Source of the DNA: a virus
Length of the DNA stretch: 64,000 nucleotides
Reading direction: 5' to 3' (one strand)
Virus record (IMG/VR): IMGVR_UViG_3300032291_001492
Location: 1 to 64,000 of that record
The translations under genes and the position numbers were made by a program. Positions 2,789 through 53,363 of the stretch are shown here, one piece after another (the first letter of the stretch is position 1; every line of letters starts with the position of its first letter). The notes below the pieces were generated by a model, which was given only the letters and a program-made list of their open reading frames with translations, was not told the DNA's origin and made no database searches.

Positions 2789-2817
2789 ATTTTATCCCGA
2801 ACTTTATTTTTATAATA

Positions 2818-4628: not shown

Positions 4629-4651
4629 TATTAGGTTTAGAGTATTTGTTT

Positions 4652-4659: not shown

Positions 4660-4680
4660 TAGGATACCACATTCAAATAC

Positions 4681-4704
4681 AAAAAAGGCTCCGAAGAGCC
4701 TTTT
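4681..4704 (-). terminator. Rho-independent terminator after gene 23
   Basis: On the minus strand AAAAGGCTC-TTCG-GAGCCTTTTTT forms a 5-bp GC-rich stem extended by A-T pairs, with a UUCG tetraloop and a U-run. It lies 43 bases after the gp23 stop. This is a textbook intrinsic terminator and would end the abundant major capsid message. Confidence 0.85.
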
Positions 4705-4746
4705 AAGTAACTTCCCATCCCGAGGGTAAAAAGTTTGATTCCGTTT

Positions 4747-33400: not shown

Positions 33401-33774
33401 TGTTTAAACCATTGTTTGGCCCTAAAGCCGCAAGTGCATTAAGAGCAACTATTAAAGTGATTCAAAATAGTAATACAAATGCTAGTGTAAGTGAGATTCG
33501 TAGTGCAATATTGGCTTCAATGGATACTTACTTTGATATTAATAATTGGAATTTTGGTGACACATTTTATTTTAGTGAATTAGCCGCATACTTACACGCA
33601 CAAAACGGATCACTAGTCAGTTCAGTTGTTTTAGTACCCAATGATCCAACAATGCGTTTTGGAGATTTATATGAAATTAAATGCCAACCATACGAAATAT
33701 TTGTTAATGCCGCAACTGCTAATGATGTAGTAGTTATAGCCGCACTTACACCCGCCGAATTACAGATAGCATAA
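30403..33774 (+). CDS. 6: Baseplate wedge protein, T4 gp6-like
   Basis: 1123 residues (T4 gp6 has 660). The N-terminal block contains RKSFIDYLRIYYPETYNDYI, then SAEFIALLDVMAYMGQGLAF, RNDLNARENFIDTAERRDSV and KLANLVSYTPKRNLAGQGYL, a near-diagnostic gp6 signature. Later segments (FKKIFSVNSRFNDQVSYVFG, DGVFSEIPVGSFRAYVR; NIKQRAPTRYYTQNRMVNGE DY) also match gp6/gpJ-type wedge proteins. The C-terminus (FGDLYEIKCQPYEIFV) is distinct. In T4, gp6 dimers make the inner baseplate ring that triggers contraction. The extra ~460 residues lie mainly in the second half. The giant gene begins 29 bases downstream. Confidence 0.92.
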   Translation: MATSSRQSAIFGVNDWKAIYQTFREADFKSYDYETLRKSFIDYLRIYYPETYNDYIESAEFIALLDVMAYMGQGLAFRNDLNARENFIDTAERRDSVIKLANLVSYTPKRNLAGQGYLKINSVQTTQNITDLNGFNLSNVPVLWNDPANPNWLEQFNTVINASLVDVQRIGRPANSAQILGVKTDEYTMQIPANSIPVVPFNSSVDGINMNFELVSVTSVGEDYVYEIPPQPTNRFNMLYRNDKLGYGSPNTGFFFYFKQGSLQTFDFNLAQQISNQVVDIDIQGINNTDTWLSQLTANNGLIGLWKQVDNIYANAYLQTETSFKKIFSVNSRFNDQVSYVFGDGVFSEIPVGSFRAYVRAGNALTYVIQPTEMQGISISFSYISRVGRQETLTVGLSLTTPVSNAQARETLANIKQRAPTRYYTQNRMVNGEDYNNFPYTLYSSIIKSKAINRSSVGVSRNLDLLDPTGKYSSTNTFADDGAVYLDTNNGFSILTINSSGDIITFLSDTLAAILADNRSIQYYIQNYTRYNVNQASGDGTVSWQTSTVNASSLTGYFYNLTNNVDTPIPTGTYSTYNAKYITKGALLKFIAPPGFYFDSNNRLVSGVATPTDTTFIWTTVLNVVGDGYNNGSGQFANGTGPITLNGFVPTEAVLSVIIPAFDNTLPNSVIQECIIKLELQQNFSLVFNNSLTIAQDRWSVEAYNATGYFVNFESTGYNRYTVTYRSLAYYFGSVADTRFTFDSGKLVYDPFSGKILQDFVKVLATNTQPSSNYPLTAPVSASIIGQTVQSDGYIDDFEVEVASIDVNDRTVVENPDFFNQITGYVTGNTNVGIYAFFEEVQDAINLSRLQLIPTADVVYQYSTTSQIEVVKYEYPVGQLFYASSENVFYITVQDETINTPFYVLVLQPQYSMKPGRQGLQFQYRHNSNNTTRIDPATTNIIDLYVVTQAYYTAYQNWIQDSTDTVPLPSRPTINELNQEYGQIQDFKMLSDSVVLNSVVFKPLFGPKAASALRATIKVIQNSNTNASVSEIRSAILASMDTYFDINNWNFGDTFYFSELAAYLHAQNGSLVSSVVLVPNDPTMRFGDLYEIKCQPYEIFVNAATANDVVVIAALTPAELQIA

Positions 33775-33803: not shown

Positions 33804-36800
33804 ATGGCAACAAGAATTAGAACGCTAAATTTTCTTCCAGAAATATTTAAAACACAAACCAATGCACAGTTCCTAGCGGCAACACTAGATCAACTTGTAG
33901 CACAACCTAACACAAAAAAGATACAAGGTTATGTGGGTAGTAGATTTGGTTATGGAGTAAATGCGACTGATTACTATGTTACTGAACCTACTAAAGTTAG
34001 AACAGATTATCAATTAGACCCCGGTGTCGTATTCTTAAAAGAAAATGATACTACTGCAAATGACTTTATTAGTTATCCTGGTATTGTTGATGGCATAAAA
34101 CTTGAAGGTGGATTAACTCAGGATAATAATAGACTATTCAACAGTCAATTTTATTCTTGGGACTCATTCACTAATCTAGATAAAATAATTAACTTTAATG
34201 AATATTACTGGTTACCAGATGGACCTGACCGTGTAATAATTTCTACGGATGTAGTGTTTAATTCGTCTAATTATCTAGTTCAAAGTTTATCAAATGAATA
34301 TTTAATTTCTTCTGAGTCTCAATCTGCAACAAGCAATCCTACGCTTACTTTATTGAGAGGCGGATCATATACTTTTAGTGTAAATCAAAATACACAATTT
34401 TGGATACAAGGTGAACCCGGTGTTACTGGATATAGCCCAACACAGCCCAACGTGCAAACACGTGACGTATTTGGAGTTACCAATAATGGTGCTGAGAATG
34501 GGGTTATTACATTTGAAGTTCCTGCACAGAATGCATTAAACGAATATAATTTTCCTCCTGGTCCTGCCGTAGGAGTTGTATCTTCATTACCGTTTAGTCA
34601 AATCAATGGTGCAAGAGTAACTGAAATAGGCGGAATTGATGGCGTTACAGCATTGGATGGTTTGACTGTGATGTTTTATAATACCGGCATAGCTGATGAA
34701 ATAGGTTATATTCAAAAATTTTACGATCAAACTTTATTTGATGAAGACGGTGGTGTTCCTTACAATGAAGCAACTGATTATCCCGGAACATCTGAATTTT
34801 ATAATAATTATGAAGGTGGTTTTTACAGCCCAGTAAATTCTAATTTTTACACAATTACTTTGTTAGGAGACCAATCTAATCCTATCATTCAACTTACCCC
34901 GGCAGGAATTATTCCTACTAATCAAACAATCACACCTACATTTGGTTCCGAGTGGGTAAACAGAAATTTTTATAGAAGTGTAGATGGTGCAATTGCTTTA
35001 GTTCCATATAACAGTGCAATACTAGACACACTATATTATCAAGACGGTACTAATCCAAATAAAGTTGGTATTATTAGATTAGCTAATAGCAATGTTTCTA
35101 ATTCATTAGATGTTGTTACTGAGATTTTAGGAAAGCCACAATATACTGCACCCAATGGAGTAGTATTTACAAATGGATTAAAAATTTTATTCCAGGGTAA
35201 TGTTACTCCTGAAATTTATAATAACACTGAATTCTATGTTGAAGGTGTAGGTACCGCAATTGAATTAATACCAGTTGCAGATTTAGTTAGCCCCGGTGCA
35301 TTTGCTGAAGGTTCTTATATTCCATTCGACACTACGCCATATGATGTGGGTAATTTTGATTCAAGTTTATATCTTTTAATAGATCCGGATTATATTACTA
35401 TTGCAAGAAATGCAATTAATAGAAATGCATGGTCACGTAGTAATAGATGGTTTCACATTGATGTTATAAATGCAACCGCAGATTATAATAATAATCCCGA
35501 ATTAGCCTCAGTTGCTACAATTTATAATAAAGCATCTCGTCCTATTATAGAATTTTATCCAAATCTTAGTTTATTCGATTCTGGTGTGATAGGTAAACAA
35601 CCTATCGATTTTATAGATTTTAGAACTACTGATGCATTTACATTGGTTGCAGGTCAACCTACATATTATCCTGATGTTGCAGGATATACAGGCTATTCTG
35701 CAACAATTGCACCAGTCTTAGCAGCCGTTACAAGTAAAACAGCAACTCAAACAGTTGGTTTGGTAAATCAAGTTATATTAAGTCCTGACACAGCAGGTAT
35801 ATACGTTAATGACACTATTGTGTTTGGTTTAGTAACTGCCGGAGGATTTGTTCCCGGCACTACGTACAAAATCGTAACTCCGGGAAACACTGATTTCACT
35901 GCAATAGGTGCATCTTCTAACGCGGTAGGTACTGTGTTTGTTGCAACAGGGGCAGGCTCAGGAACAGGTACTGCCGGAGATGTCGATTCAGAATTTGGTG
36001 GATTAATTGCCGGAGTAACTTATTATATTACTGAAATTTTTGGCAACAGAATAACAATCTCAACTGAAAAACAAGGTACAAGTGTTATCTTGTCATCTGT
36101 AGCGGGTTCTATGAGTACGTCAATATATCCTTACAGTACAACTATCACGGTTGCAACGGATGAGGTATTTGGATTATTTGAGGTTAACCAATATATTGCA
36201 GACTCAACAGGCATTCTTCCTGCAGTAACATTTATTAATGCAATAACAGAAGTCGGGTCTAATACAATCTTAACAGTTTCTTGGTATAACCAAGAAGTTA
36301 TCACCGGAACTTCAGTTGCATCTATTGTATCTGCTGATACTACTTTATCAAACTATGCTTTATTTGATGGGGCTAGAGTAGTTTTTGCTGCCGATACTAA
36401 TTTAAGTGTTAGAAACAAAATATATATTTCTCGTTTTTCTTCTATTGATGGTACAGGAACTCCTGTAATTACACTATCTGAAGCCTTTGATGGTCAAGTA
36501 TTACCGGATGAGCAGACTTCGGTTTATAGAGGATATAATTATAAAGGTAAAGATTTTTACTTTAATGTTGAAAATTGGCAACAAGCACAACAAAAAATTA
36601 CAATTAATCAGGCCCCTAAATTTGACATATATGATGAAAATGGTATAAGTTTTGGTGATAGCACAGTTTATATTGGTACGTCATTCACTGGTTGTTCACT
36701 ATTTCAATATGGCTTGGGAACAGGTATAAGTGATCCTGTTTTGGGTTTCCCATTACGTTATAGTACAGTAAATAATATAGGTGATGTTAGTTTTGATGTT

Positions 36801-39800
36801 ACACTAGATTCACAAACATTTAATTATGTTCAAGGAACAAATCCAATTACACAAAAAGTGAATACTGGATATGTATACAACTATACATCACGTACTAGCT
36901 TTGTAAGACAATTGGGTTGGCAAACAGCAGTATCACCTAGTGTACAATATCAAATTTTTGAATTTAATTGGTCAATCGATAATCCAATAACTAACTTTGT
37001 ATGTGATATAGCTCCGGTATCTTCTAGTTCAACTAATTGGCCAACTGTACAAGTTTATATAAATAATACCTATTTACCAGATACTGATTTTACAGTTTCA
37101 ACAACTGATAATACAACCACAGTTACTATATCTCAGATTGACGCTGTTAATACTGTAGTTCAGGTATTGATATTAAGTGATCAAGTAAGTTCTACTGCAT
37201 ATTATCAAATACCAATTAACTTAAGCAATAATCCTTTCAATGAAGATGTAACAACAGTTAATATTGGTGATATTCGCGGACAGTATCAAAGTATGTTCTT
37301 TAATAATCCAAATACTTTGGGACCAGTATTTGGACGTAACAACTTCCGTGATTTAGGAAATCTTGTTCCTTGGGGAAATAGAATTATTCAAAACAGTGCT
37401 TCACTTGTGTTGCCTGGAACATTCTTGCGTAAACAAAATCATAATTTGTTTAATTCTATTTTATACAACAGTAGACAATACATTACGTTTAAAAATTTAT
37501 TAATTGATACCGTAAACAATACAGATTATAATCGTATGTTGTCTCCGGCAGAAATGTTAGATGATGCAATGGATCAAATAACATCTACAAAAACAGACAG
37601 TCAACCATTCTTCTGGAGTGATATGTTGCCTTCTAAGGCACCTTATATTTCTAATACGTATTCTTTTGCAAACACACTGGATGTTAGTATATATCCTTTA
37701 AGCAGAATTTATGATTTTGACAAAGCAAATTATTATGGTGTATTGGTTTATCTAATTAGAGACAGTATCACCTCACAATTAATTTCTGGAGTGGATTATA
37801 CTGTAAGCACCAGTGCTCCTTCATTAACAGTTACATTAGATTTATTATCTAACGATCAAATTGTTATTAATGAATATAATCAAACATATGGTAGCTATGT
37901 ACCTAACACGCCTACTAAATTAGGTCTTTACCCTTCGACTATTCCAGCAGTTGTTGTCGATACTGCATATTTTGAACCTACATATTTTATAGTAGGACAT
38001 GATGGGTCATATAATAAATTGTTTGGATCATATGATAGTACTACAGGACAATTAGAAGATTTCAGAGATCAAGTATTACTTGAGTATGAGACACGTATAT
38101 ATAATAACTTAAAACTAAGCAACGTTATTCCAATTCAAACATATGAAGTAATCCCGGGTTTCTTTAGAGACCTTCAATATTCATATGATGAATTCTTAGA
38201 AGTTTATTCTGAATCTTTCTTGGATTGGGTTGGACAAAACAGAGTTGACTATAAAAGACAATTTTATAATCCAGTAAATGAATTTTCATATAATTATCGT
38301 AACAGCGGAAACAAAATAAACCGAGAAGCAATACAACAGGGATATTTTAGAGGATTGTATTTGTATTATTATGATACAACTACTCCTAATGTAACACCTT
38401 GGCAAATGATAGGTTATGCAGATCAGCCAACATGGTGGACTGAGCGTTATGGTCCTGCTCCATATACAAGTGATAACTTAATTTTATGGAACGATTTAGC
38501 AGAAGGTATAGATTGGAACAATGGTAATCCTGTAGTCATAACAGAATATATTCGTCCTGAGTTATTGCAAGTGTTACCAGTAGACAGTAACGGTGATTTA
38601 GTGTCACCTCTTACATCTATTGTTGGAAACTATAATAACAATATTTTCAAGCGTGATTGGAAAGTTGGCGATGTTGGGCCTACAGAATTTAGTTATCGTA
38701 GAAGCAGTACATGGCCATTTGATTTGATGCGTCTTTATGCATTAGCAAAGCCAGCTAATTTCTTTAACTTAGCAGTGGATGTTGACAATTACAAGTACAG
38801 TGCTGAGTTTGACCAATATTTGGTTAACAATAGAAGTCATTTACAATTAGGTGATATACCTATATATGGTTTAGGAACTCCTGCAACTAGCTATATTAAC
38901 TGGATAGTTGATTTTGAAAAACAAGTTGGCATTGATGCAACAACTGATATCACTACTTTATTAAAGAATTTAGATGTACGTTTGGTATATCGTGTAGCAG
39001 GGTTTTCAGATAAGAATTTGTTAAAGTTTTATGTTGAAAAAAGTTCAGCAAACACAACTAATAGTTCATTATTAATACCTGATGAAAGTTATTCTGTATT
39101 ATTATACGATAATCAACCATTTGATAGAATTGTATATTCTGGTGTAGTTATCCAAATAACAGAAAATGGTTATCAAGTATATGGAAATTCTCAAACTAAC
39201 GCATACTTTAAAATTTTATTGCCAAAAAATTCAGGATACAGTGAAACTATTGAAGTTGAAAATTTGTCAGTTAGGATAGCTGATCAATATACAGATAAAG
39301 TTGGTATTATTCCTTATGGTACAGAATTTTATAGCGTTCAGGAAGTTGCACAGTTTCTAAGTTCTTATGGAAAATACCTTGAAAACCAGGGTATGAAATT
39401 TGACCAGATAGAAAATGGTATTCCTGTTAATTGGGCTCAAATGATTGCTGAGTTTTTATATTGGTCGCAAATCGGTTGGGAAATTGGTAGTATAACTACA
39501 ATAAATCCTTCTGCCTCTACATTAGTAATTGACAAAGACAGTAGCGTTGTACAACCATTAACAGTAAGACAACGTAACTTTGTACTAAATCAAAACTTAT
39601 TTCCAATACAATCAATTGATTTAAATGTTGTTCGTCAAGATACTGCATTTACAGCACAACCATTGAATCAAGGTGATGCGATCAGTTATGGTCAATTTAA
39701 TATTAGTAACTTTGAACACGGTATCGTTTTTGACAACGTTACATTATTCAACGACATAATTTATAATTTAATTACTGGTTTACGTCAATATCGTGTATCA

Positions 39801-42800
39801 GTCCGCGGAGCTATAACAGCAGACTGGAATGGTACAGTTGATGCGGCAGGCTTCATTTTAAATCAAGACAACATCCAAGAATGGAATAGAGAAATTAAAT
39901 ATACCAAGGGTGAAATTGTTCTTTATAAAAATAGGTATTGGACATCTTTAACTATTGTACAACCTAAAGTATTATTTGACGAACGTGATTGGAAAGAAAC
40001 AAACTATAACGAAATTCAAAAAGGATTATTGCCTAACAGTCAAACTCGTTCTTTTGAAAGTACATTATACTATAACACTGATTCTGCAAACTTAGAAAAT
40101 GATGCAGATTTATTAAGTTTTAGTTTGATTGGATATCGTCCAAGAGATTACTTAGCACTTGCTGATTTAACAGATATCACGCAAGTAAACGTGTACAAAA
40201 ACATGATTAAAGAAAAAGGTACATTGAATGCAGCCAGTGCGTTCAAGGGTGCTAATTTACCACAAGGTGGAATTAATTATGACATTTATGAAAACTGGGC
40301 TATTAAATCAGGTGAGTTTGGTGGCGTATTAAACAACAACTTTATTGAATTTAACTTAAATCAAGCGTCATTGACAGGTAATCCAAGTATTGTTGGTTTA
40401 ACTAATGGAATATTTACTGATGGAGTACAACAAGAAGTACCGTTGTATTCTATATTCAATTATGGTAGACCAATAACTAGCCCTAATATATTACCTACTA
40501 TTTCAGCCTCTGAGCCTTCTTCATTATTCCCTACAGCAGGCTATGTCAATTACAATGACGTTAAAATGTCAAGTTATTATTATTCTGGTTTAGCTACTGC
40601 AACTAATGCTAGTGGAACAATAGTACCTATCAATGAATTTTATGTACGTGATTATGTTTGGTTAGCAAATTATCTATCTGACTGGAGAGTGTATACACCA
40701 GTCAGTTTAGGTTCAATCATTAATGCCAAGAATAATTTGAATGGTACCGTGACTATTACATTTAGCCAGGCTCATAATTTAACAAGATTTGAGTTATTTG
40801 GTATAACAAACTTTGATGTAGCAATTAATAACTATTATCTAGTGGCAGCAGTTGTTGATCCGGTTAGAGTCATTATTAATCTTTCATTGAGTCCTAGCAC
40901 ACTTAATATTGTGGGTCAAGGTATTGGTTTAAGAATGCAAAGTCAACGTGTAGCAACTGCACCTGAAATTGTTGATTTACCATTATTAAATAATGAATTC
41001 ACTAAATCAAAAGTTTGGGTTGATGAAAACAATGACGGCAGCTGGGCAGTATATCGTAAGAGTTTGAACTATCAGTATGATGCAGAAATCATTAGGGCTT
41101 CAAGCCAAACATTTGGTAGCGCAGTTGCATACACTACTCCTATGGGATACTTGATTGGTGATGCAGATGTTGGAGCAGTATACCGCTATACTTTTAATGC
41201 AGAAGCAAATACCTACACACTAGACCAAGCTATTACAAATAGCACTTCATTTGGTTCATATATATCTTATGCTGATGATTTATTTGTAATTTCAGAACCA
41301 ACAAGTGGTTCACCTAAAGTATATGTATATCAATTGATAACCACTACTCTAGTAGACAATCTGAATTCTTATCAAACTATTTCTGCACCAGGCGGAGTAA
41401 CTGACTGGGGTAGCACGACTGCTATTTCAGGTGATCAAAATTGGTTATACATCTCAGATACAGGTAATGCTAGAGTTTATGTATATCGCAAATCAACTCT
41501 TACCAACTTGTATGAAAGTGTAGGATATATTTCAGTAGCAGGTTTAACTTCTGCTGACAATTTTGGATTTTCGATTGCAACAGACTACTATGGTGATACT
41601 GTAGTAATTGGCGCGCCCGATCAAGACTATAATGTAAACACTGATAACTACGGATATGTGTACGTGTTTGCAAGAACAGTACAGAATTTTATAGCACCTT
41701 CTACCAGCCAATCATACATCCCGCAAACATTTGCATTGTCTTGGTCACCCGTCACAGTTACACAAACTGCAACTGCTACAGATAGTACCAACGATAGAAT
41801 CACGATAACAAGTTCTGCTGGTTTTAGTGTTAATGATCCTGTAGTATTCTCTGGTGATATTTTATCTTCTGGTGCAATTTCTCAAAATACTGTGTATTAT
41901 GTTTATGATAAACCAACAGCTACTACATTTAGAATTGCATCAACACGTAATGCAGCCGCACCAATTGAATTAACTACAGCTTCAGGCCCACCAAACATGA
42001 CTGTTACTGTACAAACAACACCGTTGTTTGTTAACATTAACGGAACATTGCTTGAAGATGATTCTTATGCAGTTATAGGGTCTACGTTATATGTTTACAG
42101 TGGATTAACCCCAACATTAAATGCAGGTGATATTCTTTCTGTTAGTGGATCAAATTTTGTATTGACACAAACATTAGACAACGGTCAGACACCACGTGTG
42201 GGTGTGCAGTTTGGACAAAGCGTAGATACAAATACATACGCTAATGAAATTTTAGTAGGTGCACCGTTTGAATTAAGTGCTGACAATTATGAAGGTGCTG
42301 TACATAGATTTACTAATGGTGGTGAAAAATATGGTTTTATTATTGGTACTGCTAATTGTAATATCACAACACCAAGAACAATTTTAATAAACGGATATCA
42401 AGTTATTTTACCAATAGGTAATGCAACAAATGCTTCAAACTTTATTAATGCAGCTAACATTCCCAATGTAAGTGCTACTTCTATTGACGGTAAATTAGTC
42501 ATTCAATTAGTTGACATTGCTATAGGATTTGCAGGTTCAAAACTTTCATTGACTGTGTTGAATTCAGCAACTCCTGCTGAAATGGGAATTAATATCTATA
42601 CAGCAACACAAACTATTGCTTGCCCACACTTAACTGGACCTACACAATTTGGAAGTGTAATTAAATTTAATGAGTTTGGTTCATTTATAGCTAGCGCCCC
42701 TACAGGAACTCGCTACTCAGCTACAACATTTGATTTTACAGATGATGAATTAGATAATGACACTGTATTTGATAACAATGCTACACAATGGATTGACACA

Positions 42801-45800
42801 TTTACCAATGCTGGTGCAGTATATATGTTTGATTATATTTCTGCATATAATGAAAGTTTAAATAATCCAGGTAAATTTGTATATGCTCAAAGTACAAATG
42901 CAGAAAATATTGATTACGGTTCGCAACCTTATTATGGTCAGGCATTAGATTTTAATGATAATAGAGTTACAGTAGGAACTCCTAATTTTAGACCAGGATA
43001 TGATAATGGTCAAGTAGTAGCATATACTAGTACTAGTACCGAACAAGACTGGGCAGTCTATAGAAGTTCTGCACCTATCGTTGATATAAATGGTATTGCA
43101 AACATTCAGTTATTCAGCGGATCATCTAATACAACATTAGACAACTTAGATTACTTTGATCCATTACAAGGAAAATTATTAGGGGCAATTAGAGAAAATA
43201 TTGATGTTATTTCTAATTCAGATCCTGCGGCATATAACTCTCCTAATAGCATACAGCGTGGTTTAGTATGGGGAGCAGACAAAGTAGGTCAATTATGGTT
43301 TGATACATCAAACACAAGATTTGTTAATTATCATCAAAATGATATTGTTTATAACAGCGCATATTGGGGTAGAATTTTCTCAGGCAGTGACGTTGCGGTA
43401 TATTCGTGGGTAGTAAGTAATGTTAGTCCACTCGACTATATTGGCCCAGGCATTCCGTATGATATTGATACCTATACTGTTAACGGAGTAATCAATGCAG
43501 AAGGCACTATTGTTCCATTATATTATTTCTGGGTAAGAAATACAAATATTGTATTTGAAAAGACTGGAAAAACATTAGCTGATTCTACATTAGAGGCATA
43601 CATATCTCAACCTCAAAACACCGGTATAAGTTATTTTGCACCATTACAACCTAACATTTTTGCTTTATACAATTCAGGTGATTATTTAAATGGTAATGAT
43701 ACTGTATTGCATATTGGTTATGCAACAGGAACTAACGATGATCCTATACACAATCAATATGAATTGATTCGTGCTGATTATGCAGATGATTTCTTGTCAG
43801 GTGTTCCGGGATCAGGTGCTGGATATCAAACACGTTCATCAACGGGTATAACAGAACCAATCTCATTGTATAATAGAATGTTAGATAGTATGTGCGGCGT
43901 AGATAATGCCGGTGCAGTAGTACCTAACCCATTCTTACCAAGAGCAGTTCAAACCGGTGTTCTTGCAAGACCGAGACAAAGTTTCTTCTATGATAGATAT
44001 GATGCATTAAAGAATTATTTACAATATGCCAATGAAGTATTAGCACAATTTCCTATAACAGAAATAAGAAATCCTTCATTCTTAAATACTACTGGTGCTA
44101 CGAACCCATCAACAGTAGACAATCCTGATTGGACAGGAAGTGTATTACCATTCTATGATACAACTAACTATTGGAGTTATATAAATTGGTGGGCGCCTGG
44201 TTATGATAATAATACAAAGTCTGCATTACAAGTTCCGATTTATGCTGATTTATCAACACTAACTGTTACACCTGGAACAATTGTTACTGTAGCAACAAAT
44301 GGCAATGGAAATTCAGAAACATATATCTATAATGTAGATGGTTCTTGGACCCGAATTGGATTAACAAACGGTACAATTGAATTTAGTAGTGCATTATGGG
44401 ATTACTCTACTTATAGACTAGGATTTGGTGACAATTTCTTTGATACTACACCGTATGATAACTACCCGTCAGAAGAAACTAGATATATTATTCGTTCTTT
44501 AAATGAAGAAATTTACAACAACGAATTGTTAATTTTCAGAAATAAAAGTTTAATTTTATTATTTGAATACATCCAGAGTGAAACATCTGAGAATCAAAAT
44601 TATTTGCCTTGGTTAAATAAAACATCATTCTTAGATGTATCACACACTATCCGTGAACTACGTCCAATTGAAGTATTCCAATCAGACAACGAGTTATTCT
44701 TGGAAGGTTACATGAATGAAGTTAAACCATATCATGTAGTTATTAAAGAATTCTTATTCAAATATACCGGCACTGATGTATACGAAGGTGACATCACTGA
44801 TTTTGATTTACCTGCACAGTACAACAGTTCAGTGCAACAGTTTATAACACCGGAATTAGTTTATTCTAATCCAAACGGTGATAATCAGTATTTACCAAAT
44901 GATCCTATATGGCAAACTGCCCCTTACATTCAATGGTTTAATAATCACGGAGTAAGTATTGTTGGTGAAAATGATTATCCTATATCAGTTTTAACATCAT
45001 ACATTGCGACAAATTCAAACTCATGTTATGTTGACAACGTAACCGGATTCCCTGTTACTGGAACAATTTTAATTGGCACTGAGTTGATTGGATATTCTAG
45101 TGTAAATCTATTAACTAACCAATTATTAGGATTAGCAAGAGGACTACAAAATACTGTAATACAACAACACATTCCGGGAGAAACAATCTTTATTGATTTG
45201 CCTGCTGTATTAGTGTTGAATGCAGGTAGATTGTATGACAATCCTCCTAAAATTACTGCAATAACTGATACTACTATATATCCTGAACCAACAGTACCCG
45301 CACAGTTTGAAGCTGTAATGGGCTTAGGTACTGTCATTGGTATAAATGTTATAAATCCTGGACAAGGATACGCAGTACTTCCTAAAATTGAAATTGATCC
45401 TGCTGTTGTTGTTGAAGTTAATAGTACTCAAGTAAATATTTCAAACAATACAATAGAACTTACTATACCTACATTACAAACAGGAGATTTGATTGTATAT
45501 CAGCCTGGTACAAACAGTACTGTAATAGGTGGATTAACTTCAGGACAAAAATATTATGTTAACTTGTTGGAAGTTTCTCCGGCTCCAATTATAGCACTTT
45601 ACGCTAGTTATATTGATGCTGATAGAGATCATAACCGTGTAGTTTTAACTAGCACTGGTTCAGGAGTTCAAAAATTAAACTTAGGTGCAGTTGCGTCTTG
45701 TATAACTAGCTCTGTACCAGTGAGAGAAAATAGTATTAATCTACGATTTGACAGAACTTCATATACTTCACAGGTAACTGAGTGGGCATCAGGTGATTTT

Positions 45801-48800
45801 TACGGTTCATTTTACGCAGGAACTTATTCAAATAGTGACCAAGTTTCATCTTCTTCAATAGCCTTGCAAAGCACTCAACCACCAATTGATACTATTTTGG
45901 CAAGTGCTCAGGGTGCAACATTTGAAATTTTAGATGCTACTAATGATCAAACATTAACATGGTCTTCACGTACAAGAGAAACAGTACAAACATACGGACC
46001 GGCTACTTTATATCCAAATGCTATAAGAATCAATCCATCAACAGGTGGCTCACCCGTTGCAGGAGAATTGGGTTCTACTGTAGGTTTCTATATAGGGATG
46101 CCAGTTAAATTCGTAGGTGCAACTGTAGGAAATTTAGTTAATGAAACTACTTACTATGTAAAATCTTTGGTAGATTTACCTAATCTAGTTACATCAAATC
46201 CGGAAGCTACTGGTTTTACTATATCAGCGACCGTAGATGAAGACGGTGTGCCAGGATCAACATTTGTTCTTTCAACTGCAACTGTTACGGCTGCTGGTTT
46301 ACCGATGTTTGTAGGTGAAGTCACTAATACTGCTGTGCTAACTATTAATTATAGCGGCATTAGAAACGCAACAGTTACTACATCAGGTACTAACACAATT
46401 ACAGTATTGCTTACTGCTACTGGACAAAATGGCACTAATGGATTATATACAGGTATACCTGTATACTTTACCGGAAATGTGTTTGGTGGAATTTCTGAGA
46501 ACGAGATTTACTATGTAACTACTGTTACTGGTCCACAGACATTCACTATGTCTACTCAAACAAATCCAACAACACTAACTATAACAGAAACAGATTCAGT
46601 TACTGATGCTATTACTTGTGACAGTACATTAACTCTTTCTCTTAATGAACCAATCGTGTTTACTGGAGATGTGTTTGGTAATATTGTTGAAGGTACACAA
46701 TATTACATTAGAGAACTATTCTCAGGAAATATAACGTTCTCGATTTCTGAAACTATTAACGGACCTGTATTTGCACTTGCATCTGACACTGGTTCTTGCA
46801 CAATGATAAGTCAAAAAGACACTGTAACATTACAAGATGATATTGGTTCTATGACAATGAATGTCAGCTTACCAGTAAGTCCAGGTCAAGTCAATGGACA
46901 ACTATTTACATTATATCCTACTTCTCAGCAATATATCAATCAAACAGGTGTAGTTACTAACTTGATAGAAAGAGACATTAATGCAACTCTTTCAACCGTA
47001 AACAGATTGTGCTTGTCAACTTTTACTGGCGGTATTTTAAATTTATATACTAACTTTGAGTTTGATGTTGCAAGCAATATAGGCGGACTAACAACATCAG
47101 GTGGACCATACATTGTAACTGCTGTAGGAACAACAACTGTTAACGTGTCTAGCACTAGTGGGTCAGGCAATTGGTTAACTGTACCATTAGATACTAATCC
47201 ATATACAACTGATGTGTTGTATTCTGGAATGCCAATAATATTCAGTGGGGTATCATTGGGAGGCGTATTATTAAATACAGTTTACTATGTAGATACTATT
47301 GACGCAAGCCCTCCAGTTGGCTCAGGAAGATTTACTATATCAGAAACTTCTGATTTGTCAAGTGGTATATTTGTAGTTACCAATGATAATGGTGACATGG
47401 TTGGTACAGGTGATCCATTCATTCAAGTAGCAGATACATTAAGTAATGCAACAGGTCCGGTGATGCTAACACAAACTGTTGGCACTACCCCAACATTCGA
47501 TGTAAGTTATATTTTAGGCGGTTACCGAGTAACAATTCAAAATCCAGGTAGTGTATTTGCAATTGACAACACTATAACTATTTTAGGAACTAATTTAGGT
47601 GGTACTACACCAGAAAATGATTTAGTGCTGACTGTTTCTTCAATTAATACTACTGGTGGAATAGTATCTACTATATGTAACGGAACACCTGCAGGCACAA
47701 CTGAACAATATTATTTTAAGGTTGTATCAGAAAATCAAGTAGAAGTTTACGAAAATGCAGCCTTAAGTGTTCCGGTAAGTGGACAAAATTTCCCTTATGT
47801 TGGAATCACTTCAACTACTGCTACGATAGCAACTGCTTCAAATGATAGATTTACAGTAACTAGTTCAGCCGACTTTAGTATAAATGATCCGGTTGTATTT
47901 ACTGGAACAGTATTTGGTGGAGTTACATTAGGTCAAACATATTATATTAAATCTAAACCAACAGGCACTACTGTTACTATTACAGAAACTGTAGATGGTA
48001 CCGTATTCAATATCACTACCAATGCTACAGGTTCAATGACAATGGCAAAATCAGGTGATTATGCACTATTACCGGAGCCATTCTTCTTTAGTCCTAGTAT
48101 CGTAAAATATAACAATCGTGTTTATCAATGTATCGTAAGTAACAATGATCCTGAATTTATTTTAGGTAAATGGGAACTATTAGATCCGGGTAATAGAAAA
48201 CTTAACGGGTTAGATAGAGTTATTGCATATTACAGACCTACTGTAAATATGCCGGGTGTTGATTTAACTCAATTAGTTACCGGTATAACATATCCAAACA
48301 GTACATATTTGGGTAATGCATTTGCTCCGGATGACGAATTTACAGTAGATGTTAATTTAACAGATCAACCATTTTACCCAACCGGAATTGATTTAAGCAC
48401 TATTATTTGGAATGGTATAAGCTATCTTGCAGGATCGAATGCAGAAACATACTCATCTATTAATTTAAGTGAGACTGGTTCATCTTGGGTCATCAATAAA
48501 ATTTCCAATCAACCAATTGGTATTACCGATTTGCTTTTTGCAGGAGGTAGTTATGTTCTAACTTCTAATAATCCAGCTACTCCTATACTAATAAGTGACA
48601 ATGGATTTACTTGGATTAGTAACGGAACATTTACTCCGTTTGATTCAACACCTTATGATATAACAACTTTTGATATATCTTCTGTAAATGTTCCTTCTCT
48701 GTTATTGAACGGAGTAGTTTACTATAACGGAATATACATTGCAGTGGGAAATAATATCATTTCATCTACTGATTTGTATTCATGGGTTGAACGTTATGCA

Positions 48801-51800
48801 TTCACAAGCACTACATTATCAAATGTATTAAACGATGTTGCTTATGTTAGCACTCCTGGATATACTGGATTTGTCGCAGTTGGATTAGGACAACGTTTAA
48901 TTAGTGGAACAGCAGTAAATGTTGCATTAATATTCACTAGTACGGACGGTTATAACTGGAATCAAGTATCGTTTACTGACACTGTATTCTCATTAAATGC
49001 GATTGCATCAAACAGCGGTAGCATTGTTGCAGTTGGTAATAATGGTATTATCTATGTTAGTTTCAATACTGTTAACTGGTTTGCACAAACATCACCGGTA
49101 TCAGAAAACTTAAACAATATTATTTGGGATAGTTATAATAATCAATTTGTTGCAGTAGGTGATAACGGAACTATATTGACCGGTGATGCTAATGGCAACG
49201 CATGGACAGCACGAACATCTGGCACAACAGAAGATATACAAAGTGTTGTTTGGAATAATGATGATGGCATTTATATTGCTGTTGGATTGAACAATACAAT
49301 TTTACAAAGTGCTGATGCTATAACATGGATCTCAATTGCTACATTTGAAGTATTACCGTCAGTCTATGATATTCAAGGTGATGCGTTTACTGCAGGTTAT
49401 GGTCCGGAAGAAATGGTTCCTGGGGTAGTATCTGATACTATTACTATGACTGTTGCGACCCGTCCAGGAACTAACTGGGATGAAACTGTTTATCAACATG
49501 TTGGATATAATGTAGTATCTATTGAATTATCACCAATTAATGCATTACAAACAGAGTACAGTTTTGTAAATATAACCTCTACTCCTGCACAATTAAGTGT
49601 GTTTATCATTGACTATACAACAGAATTAAGCACAACAATTTATCAAGGTATTGATTATACAATAGATTGGATCAACAAAGTTGTGACTTTGACAAATCCA
49701 TTAAGTTTTGTTACAGAAGGTACATCAGATAGATTACGTATTGATGTATATGAAGTTGGTAATGGTGATCAGTTAGTAAAAGCAAATACAGAAACTGATC
49801 CTATTAGATTAAACACCACTACTGGATTTCAAGAAATATATGTAAATGCTAATTATAGTGCAGACATTTATCAAGGTTCAGGTATTATTAGACCTAATAC
49901 TAATCCACTAGAAGCAATTGCGATTGCAACGGATGAAACAACAGATGCAATTACTTGTGAAAGTGTTGAGAATTTTGTATTGAACGGCACAATTACTTTT
50001 AGCGGAGCAGTGTTTGGTGGAATAGTAGAAGACCAAGTTTATTATGTAAAATCTATTAGTTATATATCAAACAGAATTACTATTTCTGAAATATTTAATA
50101 CAGGTTCAGGCACTGCAGGAGCAACGTTCCCGTTGACTACTGCAACCGGGTTAATGACTGCAATTATTCAAGTTGGTACCGGTACAGTATGGACACCTCC
50201 TAGCGTGTTCCACAATGGTACTAAACTAGTATTGGGTCATACTGCAAATATAACTAGAACTAAATCAGGAACCAATACTATAACTACGAATACTACCGGT
50301 GACTTAGTTCCTAATCTATCTATTAAGTTTAGTTCAACTATGTTTGGTGGAGTAATCGTACCGTTACAAACATATTACATTAAAACAATTTATGATGGAA
50401 ATGAATTTACAATTTCAGAAACACCAGGTGGCGCAGAATTAGAATTGACCAACGCTACGGGTGGTGCAATTTTCATATCAGGTGATTATGCGATTGGTAT
50501 TGCAGATAATGGCATTTCTGCTGCGGTGTTGTTGGCAAATGAATATGATGCATTAACAGACTATATCACTTATACTTTCTTTGGACAAACATTACCTGTA
50601 CAATATGGTTACACACTTCCGGAAGTGCAACTATTTGAAGGTGATGGATCAACTGCATCATTTACATTAACTAATTATGTGGGTGATAGTAATGTTACAA
50701 GTGCAATTGTCGAAATTGATGGTATAAGACAAACTATTTCTGCCTATAATATAAGTGCAATCTCTAACACTATATTGTTCAACACACCTCCGGCAAACGG
50801 ATCAACTATAGCGGTTACTTCATATAATTTGACAGACCGTCAATATTTTAATACACAATACGGCATTACAGGTTCTTCTGGTGCAACTACAACTACTATT
50901 GTAGTTAGTGACACAACCCATAGCGTGGGCACGTTTGACCAAGATACTCCAACTATTGAAACATTTGACCAAGATACTCCTAGTGTAGTTTTATATGACC
51001 AAGAATTAGATTGGCTAACACTGGGTTCAGGCTCAACAAGCAGTTTATCAATTAATTTCCCAATTGTATTCCAAGCACCAACTCTAGGTGGGTTAATTGC
51101 TGGACAAATCTATTATGTAGTAGAAATATTAAATTCAACTGATTTTGTTGTATCTACTCAAGTAGACGGAACACCCACAACAGTTACTACTGATAGTGGT
51201 TCAATGAATGGTGTGGTTAATGGATTAACAGTTGCTAATATAATTAATATTAATAATGCTATTTCTAGTCCTTTGACAACTGTATTAGTTACTGGAACTA
51301 CAGGTGGTGCATCAGATTATGTAGTGTGTGGTTCTACAACTGGACTAATCGTAGATCAACCAATTATATTTAAAGCCGCAATAACTACTGCTGGCTCATT
51401 TGTTGTAGGTAAAACTTATAAAATTACTACACTAACAGGTACTTCACAAGTGCAGTGGAATACTACTGCTGGAACTTCAGGAGTAACATATGTAGTGGGT
51501 GATATATTCACAGCCGCAACAGTTGGTGCTGGTACTGGTCAGGCGTTATTAACTGATTTGGGTGGAATTAATACATTGGGTGAAGTATATTTTGTTCGTT
51601 CTGTTGCAAGTGGAACTGAATTTACAATTAAAGATCAGTATGGAACATTAGTTAATCTAACTACTGCTAGCGGTAGTTTAGTAGGATTTATGGGTGGTCT
51701 ATCTGCAATTAGTGTAACAACTGGCATAGATCATAATCTATCGGAAAATGAAATAGTTCGTATTGATGGCACATTAGGTTCAGTACAACTTAATAACAAT

Positions 51801-53195
51801 ACATACTATACTAAAATAATAACTGACACTGAATTCTTGTTATACGATCAGCCATATAATCCAGCATTGAATGCAGTTAATTACCCAGTTACATTCTCAT
51901 CAACTTATATATCAGGCGGTTACGTTTGGTTAGATGGATTATTTACTGTATCATGTACTAATACAATTCGTACATCTTCAAATGGAAATAGAATTACAGT
52001 AGATAGCACTGAGTCATTAATTCCTAATACTCCTGTATACTTTACATCAATAGGTGAAAGTCAAGGTACTAACATATTAGGAAATATCTTAGCAAAGACT
52101 GAATATTATGTTTTAGCGGTAAGACCTGAAGTAACTGCTGGTAATTTTATTGTAGGCAATGAATATGAGATTGTAGATTTAGGAAATACTAATTGGAATA
52201 CTTGTGCCGGAACAGTTAGCGTAACTTATGCAATCGGAGATACTTTTGTTGCAGCCGCAACTGATCCAGGAACTACTGGTATTGCAACTGGTCTACAAGA
52301 GTTTACTATTACTGAAAACAGATTCCCTGATGAAGCTGAAGTTGTATTAACTAATGCTACTGGTAGTGTTGATGTATCACAATTCCAGCAAGTTAATGTT
52401 GATAGATTGTGGGTAACAATAAATGGATACAGAATCCCTTCTTCATTATTGAGAATTAATGAATATAATAATTTAAGTATTTTATCAACTGTTACTACCG
52501 GTGATGAAGTTATCATTACAAGTATGATGCCAACAGCAACACCTAATGAAAATGTATATTTGTTAAATGTAACTACAACAAATCAACCTACAGTTTATAG
52601 AGCAAACACTCAAACTAGAACTTGGTTAACTCAACCATTGAGTTTCACGGATGAAGTTATTTACTTAAATGATGCTACTAGGGTTACTGATTCTATAGTA
52701 CAAGAAGTAATTGCGCCCGCACCAGTTGACGGTAAATATAATATTGGATTAGAAGCTAATAAAAATGTAATATGTCACGTGACCGTGTACAACAATACAA
52801 CTTCAACTTTAGTAGATCCTGCTAATTTTGCAATTATTATCGTTAATTTGGCTCCAATATTACAAATTTCAGATGAAGTAAACACTGGAGATTCGTTGAC
52901 AATAACTACACTTGAGGGAAGATTGTTGTTTGTTAATGGAGAACAGATTGCGTTTGCTGAATGTGACATTATAAATAATACAGTCAGTGGATTAACTAGA
53001 GGGGCAAATGGTACAGGGGAACAAACTTTTATTCCGTTATATTCTGAAGTATTTGGTATTATTCCTAATAACAGAATGACTAATGTAACCTACGGGGCTG
53101 TGTGGAATTCTTACATTTATAATTCCGTAGACGGGGATCCATTGCAAATTAGTCAGACTATAGGTGCAAATTTCTTAAAAGTGGATAGAAGTTAA
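33804..53195 (+). CDS. Giant 6463-residue virion protein at the gp7 position
   Basis: One uninterrupted frame of 19.4 kb, directly after gp6 where T4 has gp7 (1032 aa). The N-terminus (TRIRTLNFLPEIFKTQTNAQ, NFNEYYWLPDGP) looks like a large conserved baseplate/fibre protein of marine T4-like phages. Residues ~181-241 (YTFSVNQNTQFWIQ.., VFGVTNNGAENGVITFEVP) look like a small cupredoxin-type beta domain. Residues ~1050-2400 are non-repetitive. Residues ~2430-2635 and ~2800-3085 hold FG-GAP-like propeller blades (FGFSIATDYYGDTVVIGAPD; FGSVIKFNEFGSFIASAP). Residues ~4866-5190 hold BNR/Ycf48-like blades (GYNWNQVSF, IVAVGNNGIIYVSF, FVAVGDNGTIL). At least twelve copies of a ~75-residue YYV module lie at ~653-773, ~2655-2736, ~3870-4753 and ~5376-6196. 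No signal peptide, transmembrane segment or protease motif was seen. It is probably a host-contact or baseplate-periphery structure. It is listed as virion protein by context, not by a named family. Confidence 0.75.
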   Translation: MATRIRTLNFLPEIFKTQTNAQFLAATLDQLVAQPNTKKIQGYVGSRFGYGVNATDYYVTEPTKVRTDYQLDPGVVFLKENDTTANDFISYPGIVDGIKLEGGLTQDNNRLFNSQFYSWDSFTNLDKIINFNEYYWLPDGPDRVIISTDVVFNSSNYLVQSLSNEYLISSESQSATSNPTLTLLRGGSYTFSVNQNTQFWIQGEPGVTGYSPTQPNVQTRDVFGVTNNGAENGVITFEVPAQNALNEYNFPPGPAVGVVSSLPFSQINGARVTEIGGIDGVTALDGLTVMFYNTGIADEIGYIQKFYDQTLFDEDGGVPYNEATDYPGTSEFYNNYEGGFYSPVNSNFYTITLLGDQSNPIIQLTPAGIIPTNQTITPTFGSEWVNRNFYRSVDGAIALVPYNSAILDTLYYQDGTNPNKVGIIRLANSNVSNSLDVVTEILGKPQYTAPNGVVFTNGLKILFQGNVTPEIYNNTEFYVEGVGTAIELIPVADLVSPGAFAEGSYIPFDTTPYDVGNFDSSLYLLIDPDYITIARNAINRNAWSRSNRWFHIDVINATADYNNNPELASVATIYNKASRPIIEFYPNLSLFDSGVIGKQPIDFIDFRTTDAFTLVAGQPTYYPDVAGYTGYSATIAPVLAAVTSKTATQTVGLVNQVILSPDTAGIYVNDTIVFGLVTAGGFVPGTTYKIVTPGNTDFTAIGASSNAVGTVFVATGAGSGTGTAGDVDSEFGGLIAGVTYYITEIFGNRITISTEKQGTSVILSSVAGSMSTSIYPYSTTITVATDEVFGLFEVNQYIADSTGILPAVTFINAITEVGSNTILTVSWYNQEVITGTSVASIVSADTTLSNYALFDGARVVFAADTNLSVRNKIYISRFSSIDGTGTPVITLSEAFDGQVLPDEQTSVYRGYNYKGKDFYFNVENWQQAQQKITINQAPKFDIYDENGISFGDSTVYIGTSFTGCSLFQYGLGTGISDPVLGFPLRYSTVNNIGDVSFDVTLDSQTFNYVQGTNPITQKVNTGYVYNYTSRTSFVRQLGWQTAVSPSVQYQIFEFNWSIDNPITNFVCDIAPVSSSSTNWPTVQVYINNTYLPDTDFTVSTTDNTTTVTISQIDAVNTVVQVLILSDQVSSTAYYQIPINLSNNPFNEDVTTVNIGDIRGQYQSMFFNNPNTLGPVFGRNNFRDLGNLVPWGNRIIQNSASLVLPGTFLRKQNHNLFNSILYNSRQYITFKNLLIDTVNNTDYNRMLSPAEMLDDAMDQITSTKTDSQPFFWSDMLPSKAPYISNTYSFANTLDVSIYPLSRIYDFDKANYYGVLVYLIRDSITSQLISGVDYTVSTSAPSLTVTLDLLSNDQIVINEYNQTYGSYVPNTPTKLGLYPSTIPAVVVDTAYFEPTYFIVGHDGSYNKLFGSYDSTTGQLEDFRDQVLLEYETRIYNNLKLSNVIPIQTYEVIPGFFRDLQYSYDEFLEVYSESFLDWVGQNRVDYKRQFYNPVNEFSYNYRNSGNKINREAIQQGYFRGLYLYYYDTTTPNVTPWQMIGYADQPTWWTERYGPAPYTSDNLILWNDLAEGIDWNNGNPVVITEYIRPELLQVLPVDSNGDLVSPLTSIVGNYNNNIFKRDWKVGDVGPTEFSYRRSSTWPFDLMRLYALAKPANFFNLAVDVDNYKYSAEFDQYLVNNRSHLQLGDIPIYGLGTPATSYINWIVDFEKQVGIDATTDITTLLKNLDVRLVYRVAGFSDKNLLKFYVEKSSANTTNSSLLIPDESYSVLLYDNQPFDRIVYSGVVIQITENGYQVYGNSQTNAYFKILLPKNSGYSETIEVENLSVRIADQYTDKVGIIPYGTEFYSVQEVAQFLSSYGKYLENQGMKFDQIENGIPVNWAQMIAEFLYWSQIGWEIGSITTINPSASTLVIDKDSSVVQPLTVRQRNFVLNQNLFPIQSIDLNVVRQDTAFTAQPLNQGDAISYGQFNISNFEHGIVFDNVTLFNDIIYNLITGLRQYRVSVRGAITADWNGTVDAAGFILNQDNIQEWNREIKYTKGEIVLYKNRYWTSLTIVQPKVLFDERDWKETNYNEIQKGLLPNSQTRSFESTLYYNTDSANLENDADLLSFSLIGYRPRDYLALADLTDITQVNVYKNMIKEKGTLNAASAFKGANLPQGGINYDIYENWAIKSGEFGGVLNNNFIEFNLNQASLTGNPSIVGLTNGIFTDGVQQEVPLYSIFNYGRPITSPNILPTISASEPSSLFPTAGYVNYNDVKMSSYYYSGLATATNASGTIVPINEFYVRDYVWLANYLSDWRVYTPVSLGSIINAKNNLNGTVTITFSQAHNLTRFELFGITNFDVAINNYYLVAAVVDPVRVIINLSLSPSTLNIVGQGIGLRMQSQRVATAPEIVDLPLLNNEFTKSKVWVDENNDGSWAVYRKSLNYQYDAEIIRASSQTFGSAVAYTTPMGYLIGDADVGAVYRYTFNAEANTYTLDQAITNSTSFGSYISYADDLFVISEPTSGSPKVYVYQLITTTLVDNLNSYQTISAPGGVTDWGSTTAISGDQNWLYISDTGNARVYVYRKSTLTNLYESVGYISVAGLTSADNFGFSIATDYYGDTVVIGAPDQDYNVNTDNYGYVYVFARTVQNFIAPSTSQSYIPQTFALSWSPVTVTQTATATDSTNDRITITSSAGFSVNDPVVFSGDILSSGAISQNTVYYVYDKPTATTFRIASTRNAAAPIELTTASGPPNMTVTVQTTPLFVNINGTLLEDDSYAVIGSTLYVYSGLTPTLNAGDILSVSGSNFVLTQTLDNGQTPRVGVQFGQSVDTNTYANEILVGAPFELSADNYEGAVHRFTNGGEKYGFIIGTANCNITTPRTILINGYQVILPIGNATNASNFINAANIPNVSATSIDGKLVIQLVDIAIGFAGSKLSLTVLNSATPAEMGINIYTATQTIACPHLTGPTQFGSVIKFNEFGSFIASAPTGTRYSATTFDFTDDELDNDTVFDNNATQWIDTFTNAGAVYMFDYISAYNESLNNPGKFVYAQSTNAENIDYGSQPYYGQALDFNDNRVTVGTPNFRPGYDNGQVVAYTSTSTEQDWAVYRSSAPIVDINGIANIQLFSGSSNTTLDNLDYFDPLQGKLLGAIRENIDVISNSDPAAYNSPNSIQRGLVWGADKVGQLWFDTSNTRFVNYHQNDIVYNSAYWGRIFSGSDVAVYSWVVSNVSPLDYIGPGIPYDIDTYTVNGVINAEGTIVPLYYFWVRNTNIVFEKTGKTLADSTLEAYISQPQNTGISYFAPLQPNIFALYNSGDYLNGNDTVLHIGYATGTNDDPIHNQYELIRADYADDFLSGVPGSGAGYQTRSSTGITEPISLYNRMLDSMCGVDNAGAVVPNPFLPRAVQTGVLARPRQSFFYDRYDALKNYLQYANEVLAQFPITEIRNPSFLNTTGATNPSTVDNPDWTGSVLPFYDTTNYWSYINWWAPGYDNNTKSALQVPIYADLSTLTVTPGTIVTVATNGNGNSETYIYNVDGSWTRIGLTNGTIEFSSALWDYSTYRLGFGDNFFDTTPYDNYPSEETRYIIRSLNEEIYNNELLIFRNKSLILLFEYIQSETSENQNYLPWLNKTSFLDVSHTIRELRPIEVFQSDNELFLEGYMNEVKPYHVVIKEFLFKYTGTDVYEGDITDFDLPAQYNSSVQQFITPELVYSNPNGDNQYLPNDPIWQTAPYIQWFNNHGVSIVGENDYPISVLTSYIATNSNSCYVDNVTGFPVTGTILIGTELIGYSSVNLLTNQLLGLARGLQNTVIQQHIPGETIFIDLPAVLVLNAGRLYDNPPKITAITDTTIYPEPTVPAQFEAVMGLGTVIGINVINPGQGYAVLPKIEIDPAVVVEVNSTQVNISNNTIELTIPTLQTGDLIVYQPGTNSTVIGGLTSGQKYYVNLLEVSPAPIIALYASYIDADRDHNRVVLTSTGSGVQKLNLGAVASCITSSVPVRENSINLRFDRTSYTSQVTEWASGDFYGSFYAGTYSNSDQVSSSSIALQSTQPPIDTILASAQGATFEILDATNDQTLTWSSRTRETVQTYGPATLYPNAIRINPSTGGSPVAGELGSTVGFYIGMPVKFVGATVGNLVNETTYYVKSLVDLPNLVTSNPEATGFTISATVDEDGVPGSTFVLSTATVTAAGLPMFVGEVTNTAVLTINYSGIRNATVTTSGTNTITVLLTATGQNGTNGLYTGIPVYFTGNVFGGISENEIYYVTTVTGPQTFTMSTQTNPTTLTITETDSVTDAITCDSTLTLSLNEPIVFTGDVFGNIVEGTQYYIRELFSGNITFSISETINGPVFALASDTGSCTMISQKDTVTLQDDIGSMTMNVSLPVSPGQVNGQLFTLYPTSQQYINQTGVVTNLIERDINATLSTVNRLCLSTFTGGILNLYTNFEFDVASNIGGLTTSGGPYIVTAVGTTTVNVSSTSGSGNWLTVPLDTNPYTTDVLYSGMPIIFSGVSLGGVLLNTVYYVDTIDASPPVGSGRFTISETSDLSSGIFVVTNDNGDMVGTGDPFIQVADTLSNATGPVMLTQTVGTTPTFDVSYILGGYRVTIQNPGSVFAIDNTITILGTNLGGTTPENDLVLTVSSINTTGGIVSTICNGTPAGTTEQYYFKVVSENQVEVYENAALSVPVSGQNFPYVGITSTTATIATASNDRFTVTSSADFSINDPVVFTGTVFGGVTLGQTYYIKSKPTGTTVTITETVDGTVFNITTNATGSMTMAKSGDYALLPEPFFFSPSIVKYNNRVYQCIVSNNDPEFILGKWELLDPGNRKLNGLDRVIAYYRPTVNMPGVDLTQLVTGITYPNSTYLGNAFAPDDEFTVDVNLTDQPFYPTGIDLSTIIWNGISYLAGSNAETYSSINLSETGSSWVINKISNQPIGITDLLFAGGSYVLTSNNPATPILISDNGFTWISNGTFTPFDSTPYDITTFDISSVNVPSLLLNGVVYYNGIYIAVGNNIISSTDLYSWVERYAFTSTTLSNVLNDVAYVSTPGYTGFVAVGLGQRLISGTAVNVALIFTSTDGYNWNQVSFTDTVFSLNAIASNSGSIVAVGNNGIIYVSFNTVNWFAQTSPVSENLNNIIWDSYNNQFVAVGDNGTILTGDANGNAWTARTSGTTEDIQSVVWNNDDGIYIAVGLNNTILQSADAITWISIATFEVLPSVYDIQGDAFTAGYGPEEMVPGVVSDTITMTVATRPGTNWDETVYQHVGYNVVSIELSPINALQTEYSFVNITSTPAQLSVFIIDYTTELSTTIYQGIDYTIDWINKVVTLTNPLSFVTEGTSDRLRIDVYEVGNGDQLVKANTETDPIRLNTTTGFQEIYVNANYSADIYQGSGIIRPNTNPLEAIAIATDETTDAITCESVENFVLNGTITFSGAVFGGIVEDQVYYVKSISYISNRITISEIFNTGSGTAGATFPLTTATGLMTAIIQVGTGTVWTPPSVFHNGTKLVLGHTANITRTKSGTNTITTNTTGDLVPNLSIKFSSTMFGGVIVPLQTYYIKTIYDGNEFTISETPGGAELELTNATGGAIFISGDYAIGIADNGISAAVLLANEYDALTDYITYTFFGQTLPVQYGYTLPEVQLFEGDGSTASFTLTNYVGDSNVTSAIVEIDGIRQTISAYNISAISNTILFNTPPANGSTIAVTSYNLTDRQYFNTQYGITGSSGATTTTIVVSDTTHSVGTFDQDTPTIETFDQDTPSVVLYDQELDWLTLGSGSTSSLSINFPIVFQAPTLGGLIAGQIYYVVEILNSTDFVVSTQVDGTPTTVTTDSGSMNGVVNGLTVANIININNAISSPLTTVLVTGTTGGASDYVVCGSTTGLIVDQPIIFKAAITTAGSFVVGKTYKITTLTGTSQVQWNTTAGTSGVTYVVGDIFTAATVGAGTGQALLTDLGGINTLGEVYFVRSVASGTEFTIKDQYGTLVNLTTASGSLVGFMGGLSAISVTTGIDHNLSENEIVRIDGTLGSVQLNNNTYYTKIITDTEFLLYDQPYNPALNAVNYPVTFSSTYISGGYVWLDGLFTVSCTNTIRTSSNGNRITVDSTESLIPNTPVYFTSIGESQGTNILGNILAKTEYYVLAVRPEVTAGNFIVGNEYEIVDLGNTNWNTCAGTVSVTYAIGDTFVAAATDPGTTGIATGLQEFTITENRFPDEAEVVLTNATGSVDVSQFQQVNVDRLWVTINGYRIPSSLLRINEYNNLSILSTVTTGDEVIITSMMPTATPNENVYLLNVTTTNQPTVYRANTQTRTWLTQPLSFTDEVIYLNDATRVTDSIVQEVIAPAPVDGKYNIGLEANKNVICHVTVYNNTTSTLVDPANFAIIIVNLAPILQISDEVNTGDSLTITTLEGRLLFVNGEQIAFAECDIINNTVSGLTRGANGTGEQTFIPLYSEVFGIIPNNRMTNVTYGAVWNSYIYNSVDGDPLQISQTIGANFLKVDRS
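45410..48060 (+). repeat. First dense array of ~75-residue YYV modules
   Basis: Within the giant gene about six diverged copies occur here (around 45.42-45.66, 46.02-46.27, 46.37-46.56, 46.59-46.81, 47.12-47.41 and 47.82-48.05 kb). Pattern: an initial TIT strand, then N(D/E)PVVFTG, FGGh(x)2-4 Q/T-YYVK, FTISET, ending LTxATGSMT. They are repeats at protein level; DNA identity between copies is low, so the amplification is old. Confidence 0.75.
49930..52390 (+). repeat. Second dense array of YYV modules, with nested inserts
   Basis: Five further copies (around 49.93-50.16, 50.24-50.49, 51.00-51.22, 51.30-51.69 and 51.96-52.39 kb). The last two each contain an inserted ~45-residue segment of a second type: FVVGKTYKITTLTG..VGDIF.. 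at ~51.39-51.55 kb and FIVGNEYEIVDLGN..IGDTF.. at ~52.15-52.29 kb. The same inserted type occurs at ~35.84-35.97 kb in the isolated first copy. Confidence 0.7.
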
Positions 53196-53210: not shown

Positions 53211-53363
53211 ATGAACGAAAACTTGGAAAATTCAAAGCAAGAGCAACCCGAAAAATCTGGGCCAAAACCCAATGAACACGGTGGGTTTTATTTTTCTTCT
53301 AGTGTTAAAATAACAGATCCTAATAGCAAAGAAATATTAGTCCACATGCGAGGCGATAACTAA
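53211..53363 (+). CDS. 50-residue hypothetical protein
   Basis: ATG at 53211 to TAA at 53361-53363. The residues are MNENLENSKQEQPEKSGPKP, then NEHGGFYFSSSVKITDPNSK and EILVHMRGDN. The first half is hydrophilic and disordered; the second has a beta-hairpin look (GGFYFSSSVKITDP..KEILVHMR). Its stop overlaps the ATG of the 206-aa gene (TAATG), which argues for real, coupled translation. No strong ribosome binding site is seen. It is too short for a family call and may be a small virion or assembly protein. Confidence 0.55.
   Translation: MNENLENSKQEQPEKSGPKPNEHGGFYFSSSVKITDPNSKEILVHMRGDN

Follow-up and report, generated by a model that had tools for sequence, protein, structure and literature searches.

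The gene that follows gp6 in phage T4 encodes gp7, a protein of 1032 aa. According to PMC7029224, pelagi- and cyanomyophages lack T4 gp7, which VrlC seems to replace. Much larger proteins are found in this position in cyanophages: the slot after gp25-gp6 is occupied by a "baseplate wedge initiator" of 3884 aa in S-CAM9, and by gp101 (18,231 bp, 6076 aa by coordinates), with an unrelated core, in syn9. The PHROG profiles for such giants have 4179 and 6136 columns. Another family of giants, PHROG 10938 ("virion structural protein"), is widespread among large phages of aquatic habitats and includes CBB_236, PA5oct gp355, Atu_ph07 gp180 and PBECO4 gp538. These belong to Rak2-like, PA5oct-like and Atu_ph07-like jumbo phages, and the isolates carry proteins of 3333-4555 aa in the gp6-following slot.

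Here, we describe a giant of 6463 aa from a virus. The window, which is the whole stretch of 64,000 nucleotides that was analyzed, is part of a 95,465-bp virus contig (IMG/VR record IMGVR_UViG_3300032291_001492). Because relatives of one of the giant's propellers (propeller 2, below) sit on contigs of up to 364 kb, this contig is probably one piece of a jumbo genome. The giant adds an unusually long, previously undescribed member to a family of giant baseplate-associated proteins that is already known. We estimate a probability of about 70% that it acts as the baseplate-associated virion protein of its lineage, with a conserved wedge-anchored core and a variable arm, a reading that fits the conservation gradient, the synteny and the virion data.

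Genomic Context and Family Assignment

The giant gene begins about 30 bp past the end of the gp6 open reading frame and, as in the PHROG 10938 family, lies directly after gp25-gp6. Genes for gp53-like, hub/gp5-like, gp25 and gp6 proteins precede it, and a conserved gene follows:

26393..29884, + strand: hub or tail-lysozyme-like protein at the gp5 position (family match)
29898..30347, + strand: gp25 baseplate wedge protein (family match, synteny)
30403..33774, + strand: gp6-like baseplate wedge subunit, 1123 aa
33804..53195, + strand: giant virion protein gene, PHROG 10938 family (open reading frame, profiles, orthologs, pN/pS)
53363..53983, + strand: conserved 206-aa gene, PHROG 11259

A gp6 gene stands immediately before the giant gene at all 80 clade loci, at 124 of 143 more distant loci and in five of six jumbo isolates; a PHROG 11259 homolog lies downstream in five of the six. 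The core search found 159 relatives, of which 80 were kept. The original prediction had placed the gene at the gp7 position, and synteny agrees with it in a purely positional sense.

Three slices of the protein match PHROG 10938 (E-values of 1e-124, 6e-84 and 2e-35), and together the match spans aa 1 to about 3700. Four conserved blocks are colinear with six jumbo isolates, and are common, in the same order, to Atu_ph07, Phosso, PA5oct, SCTP-2, Vibrio 2.275, PBECO4 and CBB:

33804..34283, + strand: block 1, aa 1-160, common to jumbo isolates
35361..35663, + strand: block 2, aa 520-620, from the isolate alignment
36372..40793, + strand: block 3, aa 857-2330, with the motif PW[EQ]MxG[FY]xxxPxWW (alignment, AlphaFold2 of part)
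43011..44963, + strand: block 4, aa 3070-3720, with the motifs EVKPY and TDFDLP (alignment)

CBB_236 is a homolog of the window's giant (E 2e-129) and is encoded directly downstream of the gp6 gene CBB_237. It was detected in purified CBB virions by mass spectrometry, with 21 unique peptides and 7.72% coverage (PMC5259590), and the sequence record of the homologous PA5oct gp355 carries an ESI-MS/MS note. That the giant is a structural protein, as first proposed, is therefore supported through these two homologs found in virions.

The PHROG 10938 giants and the window's giant share colinear blocks, the post-gp6 slot and a single long gene. They differ in length and in the C-terminal arm, which is far longer in the window and carries YYV modules and a second propeller. 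Complete genes at fetched loci that match the most conserved block encode 3046-4898 aa, and open frames in records reach 6311 aa. Position, size and domain mix had together been thought unusual. For position and size this is not supported, given the isolates, the 6076-aa syn9 protein in the same slot and the at least 599 stretches in IMG/VR that match the most conserved block (575-586 of them confirmed among the matches listed); the two together are already documented, and the giant-bearing group is abundant and mostly uncultured.

The only core segment that was folded, aa 1364-2400, gave an AlphaFold2 model with a pLDDT of 84. Foldseek returned mainly related giants from BFVD, and from PDB no overall fold match and weak local matches only, to endosialidases and E1 enzymes, which were set aside as chance or small-domain matches. 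A phmmer search of aa 1-2230 against PDB and a megablast search of the whole gene against phages retrieved nothing. Moraphage (PMC12619734) was considered as a possible member of the same lineage, and the link was not established. The most conserved part of the giant includes aa 2132-2159, with a KGT motif.

Domain Architecture

Outside the four blocks, the chain is composed of the following features:

39849..40001, + strand: CBM5/12-like (chitin-binding type 3) domain, aa 2016-2066, within block 3, also resembling a tail-fiber PHROG
41091..43010, + strand: propeller region 1, aa about 2430-3069, with FG-GAP_2 repeats (profile)
46068..48044, + strand: YYV-module array 1, aa 4089-4747, five copies amid other beta domains
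48390..49352, + strand: propeller 2, aa 4863-5183, seven-bladed and Ycf48-like (profile, AlphaFold2 model, Foldseek)
49944..52169, + strand: YYV-module array 2, aa 5381-6122, seven copies
52344..53192, + strand: C-terminal domain, aa 6181-6463, its end conserved in orthologs

Profile comparison confirms region 1 as a predicted FG-GAP propeller, broken by one YYV module (aa 2664-2732). FG-GAP repeats (PF14312) were detected in 20 of 21 orthologs, with a best E-value of 1.4e-9, and those of the window scored 25.0 bits against a curated cut-off of 23. Similarly, modeling confirms propeller 2 as a predicted seven-bladed, Ycf48-like fold. Its profile matched 8am5 (E 1.6e-6), and in Foldseek the AlphaFold2 model aligned with a designed seven-bladed propeller (TMt about 0.72) and with Ycf48 (TMt 0.62). 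The likeness to Ycf48 and to designed propellers is one of fold; propeller 2 is embedded in a virion protein, and a photosystem role is not implied. Both kinds of propeller serve as generic scaffolds, and their presence is no proof of host binding.

The YYV module, of about 66 aa, occurs 17 times in the window's giant, for a total of 1003 aa or about 15% of the chain. Orthologs carry 1-25 copies, and the isolates tested at most one. While the core is conserved, the C-terminal third differs among orthologs by module number, array 2 being the most length-variable part. Copy number follows protein length with a rho of 0.89 among 21 sequences, which share ancestry and are not independent. Because module number tracks length, repeat expansion contributes to the size of the giant. 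The protein had been described from the letters as a mosaic of beta modules with two propeller-like regions and not as one expanded repeat. The profiles and the predicted fold of propeller 2 bear out the mosaic and both propellers, but the part played by repeat expansion was understated, as the 17 YYV copies show.

Compared with its relative L010 (97% identical, equal length), the window's giant shows a pN/pS of 0.08-0.18 in each section, and synonymous changes predominate. Values this low in all sections indicate purifying selection at the protein level over the whole length.

Proposed Role

The gp25-gp6-giant block would yield the giant as one chain. Its conserved blocks most likely form a scaffold in or on each baseplate wedge, beside gp6 and gp25. 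Lineage-specific pieces, such as the FG-GAP propeller at about 2430-3069, would be inserted between these blocks, and the YYV beta modules and the Ycf48-like propeller would make up a C-terminal arm of 2.7 kaa. Arm and inserts may project outward, as a spacer and as a surface that binds the host envelope or further components of the virion. The arm may bind the host, link fibers or only space them. If each of six wedges held one copy, as assumed here, roughly 4 MDa would be added per baseplate. The place in the wedge, the number of copies, the geometry of the arm and any binding to the host are inferred. A peripheral arm or host-recognition surface had been proposed for the protein as a whole; this is reasonable for its C-terminal part, but the N-terminal and central blocks look scaffold-like.

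The arm could instead serve chiefly as a structural spacer or ruler, without recognizing the host. The correlation of length with module copies points in this direction, as does the low pN/pS of the arm itself (0.11-0.18). On the other hand, the highest values (0.17-0.18, a difference with few sites behind it) belong to propeller 2 and the C-terminus, and we regard a mere spacer as possible, at odds of about one in three.

It could also be argued that the giant is a true, hugely inflated ortholog of T4 gp7, whose chain conceals the gp7 core-bundle and trifurcation folds. Both genes follow gp6. In addition, aa 2132-2159 (40197-40280) show a very weak, not significant local match (E 0.018) to residues 198-225 of the S-CAM9 giant gp7, and this same segment, in PHROG 2885, is matched by T4 gp7 730-758. 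However, no significant match to T4 gp7 (PHROG 964/20454) emerged from hmmsearch, from hhalign or from profile searches of PDB, profile-profile comparison of all conserved blocks with it was insignificant, and the model of aa 1364-2400, which covers only part of the chain, found no gp7 match in PDB. Orthology is therefore doubtful, and T4 gp7 homology was set aside. The 1032-aa T4 protein and the 6463-aa giant have the slot in common, but neither sequence similarity nor, in the segment tested, fold similarity. The profile search likewise found no similarity of the other conserved blocks to T4 gp7 or to other solved baseplate proteins, and it is because of this lack of detectable likeness that insertion into the wedge is argued from synteny. 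As far as the sequence goes, the label "gp7" would denote positional equivalence only, and we do not place the giant in the T4 gp7 family.

The cyanophage giants (PHROG 2885, 701) resemble the window's giant in their position after gp25-gp6, in size and in beta modules near aa 3700-3960, and the S-CAM9 protein also has the Ycf48-like propeller 2 stretch. By contrast, blocks 1-3 (aa 1-2330) are not detectably present in them, and no N-terminal core homologous to the cyanophage giant gp7 or VrlC-like proteins was found by profile. Jumbo phages and cyanophages appear to carry different giants in the post-gp6 slot, where T4 has its small gp7.

A further alternative is that the giant is mainly an adsorption protein, a tail fiber or whisker, that adjoins gp6 by chance. 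The CBM5/12 domain with its tail-fiber PHROG similarity and the propellers would suit such a protein, syn9 gp101 is annotated as "putative fiber", and Atu_ph07 and CBB bear whiskers (PMC6102473, PMC5259590). Nevertheless, N-terminal and central blocks conserved across very distant hosts, together with strict linkage to gp6, suit a scaffold better, and family searches of the chain gave neither a trimeric fiber tip nor a fiber chaperone. We consider this alternative improbable, with perhaps one chance in four.

Returning to the wedge-anchored core with a variable arm, a bolder and speculative extension, to which we give no better odds than to the fiber, is that in this clade of aquatic jumbo phages an unrelated scaffold took over the gp7 slot. 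The arm would then consist of interchangeable beta modules strung into an evolvable chain, which grows and shrinks as modules are gained and lost, reaches about 7.8 kaa at most, and forms a megadalton-scale outer baseplate layer for which the solved contractile tails offer no equivalent. The family names allow annotators to drop "hypothetical" or an unsupported "gp7".

Integrity of the Giant Gene

The gene is a single open frame with an ATG start, 6463 codons and no internal stop, and it takes up 19392 of the 64000 nucleotides, the roughly 30% first reported. The five alternative frames across 33804-53195 contain 336-794 stops apiece, and the third-position GC of the giant frame is evenly low (0.16-0.22) from end to end. 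The product, of 704 kDa and a predicted pI of 4.2, has no convincing transmembrane stretch. The frames of relatives were examined for a join or stop, and 52 of 53 related IMG/VR records are uninterrupted (20 of 20 in one set, 32 of 33 in the other). Complete clade orthologs, 5284-7756 aa long, share the N-terminal sequence (MATRIRTLNFLPEIF...) and end in related C-termini. The frame, as originally called, is confirmed to be real, large and well supported. An assembly artefact or fusion of genes, conceivable in a metagenomic contig whose repeated modules could mislead assembly, is extremely improbable given the uninterrupted relatives, which rule out a join inside the frame, the conserved ends and the pN/pS that is low throughout.

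The sole clade member with an in-frame stop is L061 (record G039), which has one TAA in the core that may be a sequencing error or a real break. The longest ortholog met here, L022 / L096 (record G007), has 7756 aa, 838 kDa and 25 YYV modules, and giants of up to this size are among the longest phage proteins we have met.

Other Genes in the Window

Three consecutive radical-SAM proteins are encoded at 59429-63326 (+ strand). In two of them the usual domain order is inverted, with a SPASM domain on the N-terminal side of radical-SAM. In Atu_ph07 and Phosso, too, radical-SAM clusters come after the giant gene, and another radical-SAM protein of the window (3627-4718, - strand) adjoins the major capsid gene. 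A 1157-aa protein with tail-associated-lysin-like and endolysin-like regions (10735-14208, - strand) adjoins the portal gene. Finally, a 414-aa protein at 54015-55259 (+ strand) has a Peptidase_G2 autoproteolytic cleavage domain, of the kind present on self-cleaving fiber or spike proteins.
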